Positions 18,288 to 22,179 of a stretch of 40,686 bases of DNA are shown in pieces. A program made the position numbers and the translations under genes. The first letter of the stretch is position 1; the number at the start of each line of letters is the position of its first letter. This DNA comes from Chloroflexota bacterium (GTDB lineage: Bacteria; Chloroflexota; Dehalococcoidia; Lucifugimonadales; UBA2985). The notes beneath the pieces were generated by a model, which was given only the letters and a program-made list of their open reading frames with translations, was not told the DNA's origin and did not search any database. The DNA is taken from the NCBI GenBank assembly GCA_002717805.1, contig PBBS01000018.1, positions 1-40,686 on the forward strand. The letters run 5' to 3'.

Positions 18288-19310
18288 ATGTTCGCAACAA
18301 GAATTAGAGGGATTTTACTATTAGGAATTCTTAGCATTGCTGTTATTGCCTTGATGATTGGTTGCTCCAGTGAGGAACCAACAGCAGTACCTGCCACAGC
18401 TACAAAAGTACCTGCTACGGCTACAAAAGTACCTGCTACGGCTACACCTACAGGTGTCCAATATCCATTAACCATTACAGACATGATGGGTAGATCAGTA
18501 GAGATCAGTGCGAAGCCTGAGAGAATAGTGGCGATTAGCCCAACTGCAATGGAAATGCTGTATGAGGTTGGTGGCAAAGCAGTGGGTAGAAGCAGTAGTG
18601 CTAGATTTTCTGAGGAAGTAATAGCTTTACCTGATGTTGGTGGTGCATACAATCCAAGTATTGAAACCATAGTTACCCTTAGACCCGACCTATTACTTAT
18701 AGAATCATTAACACAAGGCCACATGACACAAATGCTGGGTAGTCTTGAAGCTCCTATAGTGGCAGTCAGGGCTACATCCGTTAATGATATTAATCAGGGT
18801 TTGAGTCTTATAGGTAAGATAGTAGATTTGGAAGATGAATCAGAAGCTGCTATAGCTGAAATCGATAGTAGAATCAAGGATACTGTTGCATCATCCAGTA
18901 TGGATAAGAGTGTACTTATACTTATCGCTGACGAAGAACGTAATTTTTACGCAGCATTACCTGATTCATATCCTGGAGCAATAGCTAGTATACTAGGGCT
19001 TTCTAATGTGGCCGATGGAATGCAAGCTTCCGGACCATATCCTGGATTCACATTATATTCTCCTGAGCAAGCTGTAACTAGCAATCCGAATGTTATATTG
19101 GCTATAACCCCTGCTCCAGAGCCAGTACCTAGACTTACTTCAGCATTGCCATTCGTTCCAGGTTTTAAAGACCTAGATGCTGTAACATATGGCAGGGCAG
19201 TGGAAATAGATCCCGTAGTGTTCTTACGAGCTCAAGGACCGAGGATAGCTGACGCAGTAGAGTCGTTAGGCTCACTGCTTGGCAATATGGATTTCTCAGA
19301 GGTAAAATAA
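18288..19310 (+). CDS. ABC transporter substrate-binding lipoprotein (BtuF/FecB family)
   Basis: A 340-residue periplasmic-binding-type lipoprotein for a vitamin B12, haem or ferric-siderophore importer. The signal peptide ends in ALMIGC (Cys26). A 21-residue linker of three VPATAT(K/P) repeats follows. The mature part shows the family hallmarks: ITDMMGRSVEI, PERIVAISPTAMEMLYEVG, then a DVGGAYNPSIETIVTLRPDL stretch. ATG 18288 has TAGGAAG 7 nt upstream; an in-frame TTG at 18270 is rejected because it lies over that site. First gene of a three-gene operon with permease and ATPase. Which ligand is carried cannot be told; cobalamin is the commonest assignment for this group. Confidence 0.9.
   Translation: MFATRIRGILLLGILSIAVIALMIGCSSEEPTAVPATATKVPATATKVPATATPTGVQYPLTITDMMGRSVEISAKPERIVAISPTAMEMLYEVGGKAVGRSSSARFSEEVIALPDVGGAYNPSIETIVTLRPDLLLIESLTQGHMTQMLGSLEAPIVAVRATSVNDINQGLSLIGKIVDLEDESEAAIAEIDSRIKDTVASSSMDKSVLILIADEERNFYAALPDSYPGAIASILGLSNVADGMQASGPYPGFTLYSPEQAVTSNPNVILAITPAPEPVPRLTSALPFVPGFKDLDAVTYGRAVEIDPVVFLRAQGPRIADAVESLGSLLGNMDFSEVK
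18387..18449 (+). repeat. Three tandem 21-bp repeats in the lipoprotein linker
   Basis: Units start at 18387, 18408 and 18429 (GTACCTGC-CAC/TAC-type, each encoding VPATAT plus Lys or Pro). The second and third copies are nearly identical. They encode the flexible tether between the lipid anchor and the binding domain and could change copy number by slippage. Confidence 0.85.
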
Positions 19311-20287
19311 TAGATATAAGAAATCTTTCGATACTCGGAGCTATTGCCGGACTTATAGCGATTGGCATTGTCATAGCGATTGTACTTGGTCCGGCTAGCT
19401 TAGAGTGGGGCGAACTACTTGCTGGTGTCTTTACTAGGGATGATCCAGTCGTCAAGATAGTCGTTTGGGATATAAGAATACCTAGGATCATAATATGTAT
19501 TCTCGTTGGATTTTGCCTTGGACTATCAGGAGCTATGATCCAGCTTTCTACACGTAACCCATTGGGTGACCCACAGTTGTTTGGATTGGGAGGAGGAGCT
19601 GCAGTAGTTCAGGCTCTTAGTATGGCTGGAATAATTGTTGTTGGGCCATGGGTTCTAGTAAGTCTGTCTATTCTTGCATCTATAGGCTGTGCATTTGTTA
19701 TAACGTTTTTTTCTTTTAAAGACTATATTAGTCAGTCAAGATTGGCTCTAATAGGCGTATCGTTTTCCGCAATATCCGTTGCTATCTCTATGAGTATATT
19801 CGCTCAGGCTCGAATATTTAGCCAGCAGACTATACATTTTATAGGCGGAAGTATGTCTAATAGGATATTGGATAACATTGTGCCAACGTTGCCATTTTTG
19901 TTGGTGGCTATACTTTTAGCGCCACCTATAGCAGCCCGTCTTAATTTACTTAGTTTGGGTGATCGGATTGCATACAATCTAGGAGGCAGACCAGGCTTCA
20001 CAAGGATAATGGCAATGAGCTCTGCTGGAATATTAGCAGGCATAGCAGTTTCTATGGCTGGGTTGATAGGATTTGTAGGATTGGTAGTGCCTCATATATC
20101 GAGGCTTTTGGTTGGACATGATGCTAGAGCAGTTATGCTCGTATCTGCTCCACTAGGAGCACTATTGGTTCTTTATGCAGATCAAATCGCTAGACTTGCA
20201 TTCATGCCATCTGAGATACCAGTAGGTATGGTTACTACTCTAGTAGGAGCACCTCTCATGATATTCATAGCTAGGCGATTAATATGA
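19310..20287 (+). CDS. ABC transporter permease (BtuC/FecCD family) with apparent ATA start
   Basis: Integral membrane subunit of the importer. From 19313 the frame is open and encodes the conserved FecCD N-terminus: a first helix (ILGAIAGLIAIGIVIAIVLG), IRIPRIIICILVGFCLGLSG and NPLGDPQLFG. The end carries GLIGFVGLVVPHISRLLVGHD. No ATG, GTG, TTG or CTG occurs in frame between the stop at 19250 and ATG 19535, and starting at 19535 would delete two helices. ATA 19310 has AGAGG (19298-19302) 7 nt upstream, overlaps the preceding stop (TAATA), and gives 325 residues, the normal length (E. coli BtuC 326). It therefore probably starts at ATA, or an ATG has mutated. The stop overlaps the ATPase start (ATGA). 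Confidence 0.85.
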   Translation: MDIRNLSILGAIAGLIAIGIVIAIVLGPASLEWGELLAGVFTRDDPVVKIVVWDIRIPRIIICILVGFCLGLSGAMIQLSTRNPLGDPQLFGLGGGAAVVQALSMAGIIVVGPWVLVSLSILASIGCAFVITFFSFKDYISQSRLALIGVSFSAISVAISMSIFAQARIFSQQTIHFIGGSMSNRILDNIVPTLPFLLVAILLAPPIAARLNLLSLGDRIAYNLGGRPGFTRIMAMSSAGILAGIAVSMAGLIGFVGLVVPHISRLLVGHDARAVMLVSAPLGALLVLYADQIARLAFMPSEIPVGMVTTLVGAPLMIFIARRLI

Positions 20288-20979
20288 GAATAGAAGTGAG
20301 AGACGTATCCTTTTCATATCCTAATAACCTAATTTTGGATTCTGTTAGCATGACGATGGAAACTAAGTCGTTGGTATGTTTGATAGGATCAAATGGTATG
20401 GGTAAAACTACTCTGATTGATTTGATTAGTGAAAAAATCCAGCCTAGTAGTGGGAATATATCGATTCAGAGAGATAATGGATCCTATGTTGATAAGGATA
20501 TAGGAGAGAACTTGTTTGCATTGATTCCTCAGGGTATTGCAGATCCGATGTATTTGACAGTTAGAGAGACTGTGTCAATGGCTAGGTTTGACCCAGCTAG
20601 AATTTGGAAAATGCGGCTGAGTGATTATGACGAGAAGCTAATTTCACAGAGCATAGAATTGTGTGGGATGTCTGATAAGCAAGATAGAACATTTCTAGAA
20701 TTGTCAGGCGGGGAGAAACAAAGGGTATGGCTTGCTTTTTGTTTAGCGCAAGATAAAGAGCTACTTATTCTGGATGAATCTTTGCACGCACTTGATTTCT
20801 CCTCTAGGATATTCTATTTCCAGTTGCTGTCTTCGTTGGCAGAATCCGGTAAAGGTATATTGTTAAGTACCCATGAACTTTCTCTTGCGGAGAAATTTGC
20901 TGATAGGATTATAGTAGTTAAAGATACTAATATTGTATATGATGGTCCTCCGGTAAATGAACTAGCATCATTAATTTGA
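20284..20979 (+). CDS. ABC transporter ATPase (BtuD/FecE family)
   Basis: A 231-residue nucleotide-binding subunit of the importer. Walker A is GSNGMGKTT (35-43), the Q-loop glutamine is in IPQG (Q83), the signature is LSGGEKQR (140-147), Walker B is LLILDES (160-166) and the H-loop histidine is in STHEL (H197). The D-loop region reads ESLHALDF instead of the usual EPTNALD, a small deviation. The start overlaps the permease stop by 4 nt (ATGA), indicating coupled translation. It is slightly shorter than typical FecE proteins (about 250). Confidence 0.92.
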   Translation: MRIEVRDVSFSYPNNLILDSVSMTMETKSLVCLIGSNGMGKTTLIDLISEKIQPSSGNISIQRDNGSYVDKDIGENLFALIPQGIADPMYLTVRETVSMARFDPARIWKMRLSDYDEKLISQSIELCGMSDKQDRTFLELSGGEKQRVWLAFCLAQDKELLILDESLHALDFSSRIFYFQLLSSLAESGKGILLSTHELSLAEKFADRIIVVKDTNIVYDGPPVNELASLI

Positions 20980-21042: not shown

Positions 21043-21118
21043 GGGGCTGTAGCTCAGCTGGGAGAGCGCTTCAATGGCATTGAAGAGGTCAGGAGTTCGA
21101 TCCTCCTCAGCTCCACCA
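21043..21118 (+). tRNA. tRNA-Ala, anticodon GGC
   Basis: A complete 76-nt cloverleaf with encoded CCA. The acceptor stem GGGGCTG/CAGCTCC includes the G3-U70 pair that identifies alanine tRNA. D arm is GCTC-AGCTGGGA-GAGC; anticodon stem is CTTCA/TGAAG around loop ATGGCAT, giving anticodon GGC at 21076-21078; the T arm is AGGAG-TTCGATC-CTCCT. It decodes GCC and GCU. The gene separates the ABC cassette from the monooxygenase; no integrase or att duplication is seen next to it. Confidence 0.97.
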
Positions 21119-21150: not shown

Positions 21151-22179
21151 GTGGTAGAGAATTATACCTTCGGAGTTGTAGATCAATCTCCAATTAGAAA
21201 GGGTGGAAGCGTTCAGCAGGCCCTTCAGGAGACAGTAAGACTTGCCCAATTAGCAGAAGAGATGGGCTATTATAGGTATTGGGTTGCAGAGCATCATAAC
21301 TCAGGTGGTTTTGCAGGGACATCTCCGGAGATATTGATCGGTCAAATAGCTTCTCAAACCAATACTATTAATGTCGGAAGTGGCGGAGTCATGCTATCGC
21401 ATTATTCTGCCTTGAAAGTAGCAGAGAACTTTAATGTACTGCGATCTTTTTATCCAGACAGAATAGAATTGGGAATTGGTAGGGCACCTGGGAGTGATCA
21501 GGATACAGCGAGAGCCCTTGCATATCCAAAACCCTTGGTAGATATACAACATTTCCCACAACAAGTTGTAGACTTAGTCGGGTTTCTTTCTGGAACGTTG
21601 CCGGAAGATCATGTGTTTAATGGTATCAAAGCGCAACCAGGACCTCCACCTGATTCCATACCTGGTATATGGCTGTTAGGATCAAGCGATTATAGTGCTA
21701 GGCTAGCAGCAGCTTTGGGCCTGCCTTTTTCATTTGCAGATTTTTTTGGTACTACTGCAGAGCACGGTCCGGTAATAGCTGAGTTATACCGGCAGCAATT
21801 TCGCCCTTCTGGCTATCTAAAGGAACCAAAGTTTAATGTGGCGTTGCAAGTTATTTGTGCAGATACTCAAGAGAAGGCAGAATTCATACTATCTAGTAGG
21901 AATATATCTAGCCTTAATAGGCTAAAAGGCATTCGGGAGCCACTCATATCTCCAGAAGAAGCCACTTCAATTGAGTTGACTCCATTTGAGGTACAACATT
22001 TAGAGAACACGAACAGGTATCTTATAATAGGCACTCCTGAAGTTGTTAAAAAAGGTATCATAGAAGCAGCTGGGGTTTACAAAACCACAGAAATTAGCAT
22101 TGCTACAAACTGCCATTATTTTGAGGATCGGGTTCGATCATTTGAACTTGTTGCTCAGGCCTTTGGCTTGAATAATTGA
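21151..22179 (+). CDS. LLM class flavin-dependent oxidoreductase (luciferase-like)
   Basis: A 342-residue TIM-barrel protein of the bacterial luciferase-like family, of the YhbW/MsnO8 subgroup. Visible signatures are the opening strand FGVVDQSPI, YWVAEHHNSGGFAGTSPEILIG (about 43-64), INVGSGGVMLSHYSALKVAE (about 72-91) and RIELGIGRAPGSDQDTARAL. Such enzymes use reduced FMN supplied by a separate reductase to oxygenate organic substrates; no reductase gene is adjacent. GTG 21151 is preceded by GGAGGG at 5-nt spacing. It follows the tRNA by 32 bp and precedes a lipoprotein by 19 bp. Marine Chloroflexota often carry many such paralogues. Substrate unknown. Confidence 0.9.
   Translation: MVENYTFGVVDQSPIRKGGSVQQALQETVRLAQLAEEMGYYRYWVAEHHNSGGFAGTSPEILIGQIASQTNTINVGSGGVMLSHYSALKVAENFNVLRSFYPDRIELGIGRAPGSDQDTARALAYPKPLVDIQHFPQQVVDLVGFLSGTLPEDHVFNGIKAQPGPPPDSIPGIWLLGSSDYSARLAAALGLPFSFADFFGTTAEHGPVIAELYRQQFRPSGYLKEPKFNVALQVICADTQEKAEFILSSRNISSLNRLKGIREPLISPEEATSIELTPFEVQHLENTNRYLIIGTPEVVKKGIIEAAGVYKTTEISIATNCHYFEDRVRSFELVAQAFGLNN

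Follow-up and report, generated by a model that had tools for sequence, protein, structure and literature searches.

infC, the gene for initiation factor 3 (IF3), is the textbook example of a gene read from a start codon that IF3 discriminates against, and its non-canonical start serves autoregulation (AUU in Escherichia coli). Initiation at AUA is already known and rare, having been demonstrated experimentally in Staphylococcus aureus for infC, ccpN, and citZ, each with Shine-Dalgarno support, and cvfC1 of the same organism starts at AUU (PMC13009471). In that system, where the Shine-Dalgarno motifs are extended, AUA reporters gave about 10% of the output of AUG, rising to as much as 30% in rich medium (PMC13009471). 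Overlapping stop and start codons (ATGA, TGATG), combined with a Shine-Dalgarno sequence within the upstream gene, constitute the geometry of termination-reinitiation (PMC6728339). The ABC permease described here adds another instance of an AUA start; the literature searched contained no conserved AUA start of an ABC permease gene lying at a coupled junction in uncultured Chloroflexota.

The locus lies in a stretch of 40,686 nucleotides (hereafter the window; contig PBBS01000018.1 of assembly GCA_002717805.1, Chloroflexota), where a substrate-binding protein (SBP), a permease, and an ATPase form a three-gene operon of the BtuCDF/FecBCDE type, with all three genes open. Its features are as follows.

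18288–19310, + strand: upstream ABC-transporter SBP (Peripla_BP_2, BtuF/FepB-like lipoprotein; PF01497, E 6.2e-20; ORF)
19298–19303, + strand: Shine-Dalgarno-like AGAGGT within the end of the SBP gene (anti-Shine-Dalgarno duplex, −7.1 kcal/mol)
19310–19312, + strand: putative AUA start of the permease gene (aligned with ATA in two relatives, L034 and L037; no canonical in-frame start)
19310–20287, + strand: FecCD/BtuC-type permease, 325 aa (PF01032, E 7.1e-72, profile 1–311; BtuC/FhuB/HmuU matches)
19535–19537, + strand: first canonical start codon of the permease frame, ATG, codon 76 (ORF list, profile, model)
20284–20979, + strand: ABC ATPase of the same operon, with an ATG that overlaps the permease 3′ end (PF00005, E 1.3e-23)

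Directly after the operon there is a tRNA gene (21043–21115, +), followed by a luciferase-like monooxygenase gene (21151–22179).

According to the ORF list and codon reading, the permease frame is open from 19253 to 20287, with its stop at 20285–20287 and an in-frame TGA at 19250–19252. A sequence-only reading had claimed that no ATG, GTG, TTG, or CTG lies between this upstream stop and ATG 19535, and the claim was borne out: an ORF search detected no ATG, GTG, or TTG in the frame upstream of 19535, and codon-by-codon reading, together with a script run over the first 150 nt, detected no CTG either. When read from 19310, residues 15–323 match positions 1–311 of the FecCD profile (PF01032)—that is, its full length—and in the PDB match to E. 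coli BtuC, residues 29 and 321 align with the residues of the same number, with no net shift, in agreement with the earlier statement that this start restores the family's normal length of 325 residues. The full-length profile match and the SBP (PF01497) and ATPase (PF00005) neighbors place the protein in the FecCD family; against the BtuC equivalog (vitamin B12 permease, NF003001) it scored 162.8 bits, with the cut-off being 334, and no equivalog cut-off was reached. In the AlphaFold model, helix 1 is predicted at residues 3–25 (block pLDDT 76–91) and helix 2 at residues 46–81, and ATG 19535, as codon 76, would therefore fall within helix 2. The model is weak overall (pLDDT 64) and good at the N-terminus, and was thus used only for these two helices and not for a fold search. 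Furthermore, a scan for coding-likeness outliers among 192 long frames (207 kb of this assembly) showed 74 coding-like codons (log-odds 26; next best frame, 13) ahead of the first canonical start of the permease, which is a clear outlier in its own genome; the upstream coding-like stretch is not due to chance.

The junction itself is as the sequence-only reading had described it: AGAGG (19298–19302) is separated by a spacer of 7 nt from ATA 19310, and the SBP stop TAA (19308–19310) and the ATA (19310–19312) share A19310 to give TAATA. This arrangement, with a co-directional stop/start overlap and an intragenic Shine-Dalgarno sequence, has the geometry of termination-reinitiation. The Shine-Dalgarno pairing is moderate (−7.1 kcal/mol, with random 20-mers of the window having a median of −2.9 and a 5% quantile of −7.2) compared with that in L034 and L037 (−10.2), with spacers of 5–7 nt. 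Two other ATAs occur in frame, at 19307, adjacent to 19310, and at 19316; Shine-Dalgarno spacing and the relatives favor 19310 as the putative start, from which the N-terminus is predicted to be fMet-DIRNLSILGAIAG... Base 19312 itself was seen once, in a single contig of a metagenome-assembled genome (MAG).

Relatives were collected from the order (250 genomes), from class and phylum samples, and from one scan of the GTDB collection, yielding 13 close members including the window. Two of them, L034 (= L006; VXLM01000070.1, a Dehalococcoidia MAG) and L037, belong to other families of the same order and are 51–54% identical to the window permease (52% for L034 and 51% for L037). Both show AGGAGG, 6 nt, and ATA at residue 1 of the alignment, with the ATA overlapping the TAG stop of their own SBP gene (ATAG) in the junction sequence GTAGGAGGCTCCC[C/A]ATAG; the T and A of the ATA are partly forced by this overlapping stop. 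Both lack ATG, GTG, and TTG ahead of the first helix; the earliest such codon is codon 17 in L034 and codon 31 in L037, and the first CTG in L037 is at codon 9, inside helix 1. The L034 and L037 proteins are 80% identical, and their 4-fold sites agree at only 83 of 186 positions (55% differ), with the ATA and the Shine-Dalgarno sequence kept, indicating that the retained ATA does not merely reflect recency.

Apart from the window, ATA is thus conserved at the homologous position in two of 12 close homologues, with the others using GTG or TTG; the closest by bit score (L005, 58%) starts at GTG. ATG, which the earlier reading had named as the codon to look for at this junction in relatives, starts none of the 13 permeases, window included, whereas the ATPase starts at ATG in at least six of the same 13 loci. 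This contrast, in counts made without correction for kinship, suggests that the permease start may be kept weak. In a tree, L034 and L037 join L043 (TTG), and the window permease stands separately, in a placement without resolution; ATA would accordingly have arisen at least twice, or be old and repeatedly lost to GTG or TTG elsewhere. Among more distant relatives (L015, L019, and L021), the permease N-terminus would seem to require a CTG start that overlaps the end of the SBP gene.

Evidence for AUA initiation was also found elsewhere in the genome and the order. The infC gene of the window's genome (G000:C1, about 49659–50285, − strand) reads GGGGAGGGGcgt-ATA, with no canonical codon before the conserved N-terminus, and the start position of the 30 readable infC genes in the order is occupied by ATA in 17, ATC in eight, ATT in four, and GTA in one (loci L057–L088, read from printed contexts; a few of these genes have, in addition, a canonical codon earlier in the open frame). 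Initiation at AUA should therefore be functional in this lineage. In a genome of the family to which the window's genome belongs (L087, G004), infC has GTA where its relatives have ATA, ATC, or ATT, and no ATG, GTG, or TTG occurs earlier in the open frame.

A search of about 600 kb (45% of the genome) for in-frame ATAs with a strong Shine-Dalgarno sequence and at least eight codons before the first canonical start returned four. Three of these, at infC, ilvN, and the permease, look genuine; the fourth (C18:46095–47393) probably belongs to an out-of-frame ATG. An earlier codon-score filter had been too strict and missed ilvN, the gene for the acetolactate synthase small subunit (G000:C19:40963–41490, + strand; L049:3964–4488), which appears to start at ATA after AGGAGG: it reads AGGAGGctaagtc-ATA, three bases past the stop of the preceding gene. 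The TIGR00119 match begins five residues after the ATA, and the first ATG of the gene does not come until the ACT domain. With only four qualifying ATAs in about 600 kb, a genome-wide reassigned start code is unsupported. Two further frames of this genome were noted: in nuoD (G000:C18:56234–57382, + strand), a CTG that follows AAGGAG and lies twelve codons upstream of the first ATG is a possible start, and a terminase small-subunit-like frame (PF03592; L101, G000:C12:178–618, − strand) has an ATT after a Shine-Dalgarno-like site, its first canonical codon being 56 codons later.

The third base of AUA does not pair with the initiator anticodon, and IF3 disfavors the codon. We consider it very probable that the permease starts at AUA 19310 naturally and weakly, with assistance from the Shine-Dalgarno sequence and coupling to the SBP gene, such that permease output stays below that of the SBP. 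Ribosomes ending SBP synthesis at UAA 19308–19310 would be held through pairing of GAGGU (19299–19303) with 16S rRNA, and a fraction of them would then use fMet-tRNA to begin anew at the AUA that overlaps this stop. Because of the mismatch and the disfavor by IF3, the yield of permease is expected to be low relative to that of the soluble SBP and tied to SBP translation; because the IF3 gene in this genome is itself started at AUA, permease output may also follow the IF3 level. We infer that initiation takes place at AUA, that it is coupled to SBP translation, and that its yield is low and sensitive to IF3, and would suggest that the weakness of the start is selected and that the IF3 level matters.

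The sequence-only reading had left a choice among a natural start, a recent G-to-A change, and an error, and the natural start is favored by the ATA in L034 and L037, where a canonical alternative is absent and the Shine-Dalgarno sequence is stronger, and by infC at ATA. A G-to-A change at 19312, by drift or as a strain variant, would imply a gene that until lately began at ATG (TAATG) and is now weakly expressed or decaying. ATA is one transition from ATG, base 19312, being outside the SBP gene, is under no constraint to be A, and the TTG of L043 (sister of L034 and L037) and the GTG of L005, the nearest homologue, show that start codons change within the clade; citZ of S. aureus, moreover, is a single-lineage case of AUA (PMC13009471). 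However, no close homologue has ATG, the permease frame is intact in an operon with all three genes open, and ATA persists in other members of the clade and at infC, making this explanation unlikely; such a change, if it happened in the window lineage, hit a codon stably used by relatives. An error at 19312 in the MAG consensus is less probable still: one substitution in a single contig would be enough, but ATA, with no canonical alternative, occurs at the same residue in two relatives whose assemblies are independent, and infC of the same genome is at ATA, as in most infC genes of the order.

Two other explanations dispense with the ATA, and each is judged highly improbable. A −1 slip on the last SBP codon (GTA AAA TAA, A AAA) would produce an SBP–permease fusion with no separate start, and indeed the permease frame is −1 to that of the SBP, with the AAAA of the window permitting a slip by one tRNA. 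That run is not conserved, reading C CCC A in L034 and TCC CAA TAG in L037, the permease of L035 lies in the other frame with a TTG start, and a good Shine-Dalgarno sequence precedes each ATA. BtuC has a cytoplasmic N-terminus, as known from its structure, and a fusion would place an exported SBP ahead of such a terminus. Equally improbable is a functional protein of 250 aa from ATG 19535, the first canonical codon in frame and the one that gene finders would call: it would cover only positions 62–311 of the FecCD profile, dropping positions 1–61 along with all of helix 1 and the greater part of helix 2, and would remove columns invariant in 11 relatives (e.g., R56, P58, R59, and G67); codons 1–75 are also coding-like.

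Since standard gene finders disallow ATA, the permease would be annotated 75 residues short and without its first helix, and the proposed start at 19310 makes it worth looking for AUA starts at any conserved N-terminus that has no canonical codon. A conserved AUA outside infC, at an overlapping junction, also offers a natural test of weak starts setting subunit ratios in coupled operons and of their response to IF3. More tentatively, and at a likelihood somewhat below even, the clade may keep its BtuCDF-like permease on weak starts (GUG, UUG, and AUA; never AUG) as a stoichiometry device, and AUA may form a regular third tier of start codons in these genomes, linked to IF3 and overlooked by annotation pipelines, with infC, ilvN, and the permease as its examples.

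Compared with the permeases BtuC, FhuB, and HmuU, the window permease has the same family, length, and operon order with an SBP and an ATPase, although a search found no cobalamin riboswitch in the window and no riboswitch of any kind near the operon. As in the infC autoregulation system, infC of the window's genome lies on a start discriminated against by IF3, here ATA; unlike infC, the permease gene encodes no initiation factor, and its link to IF3 is one that we infer. The AUA genes of S. aureus resemble the permease in their Shine-Dalgarno support, in conservation among relatives (ccpN), and in having infC of the same genome also at AUA (PMC13009471), whereas the present, predicted case is an ABC permease gene overlapping the stop of the preceding cistron in an uncultured Chloroflexota lineage. 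Finally, the start here is ATA and the coupling a predicted one, but TAATA in the window and ATAG in L034 and L037 share the geometry of TAATG and ATGA in known termination-reinitiation junctions (PMC6728339), with the Shine-Dalgarno sequence inside the upstream gene.
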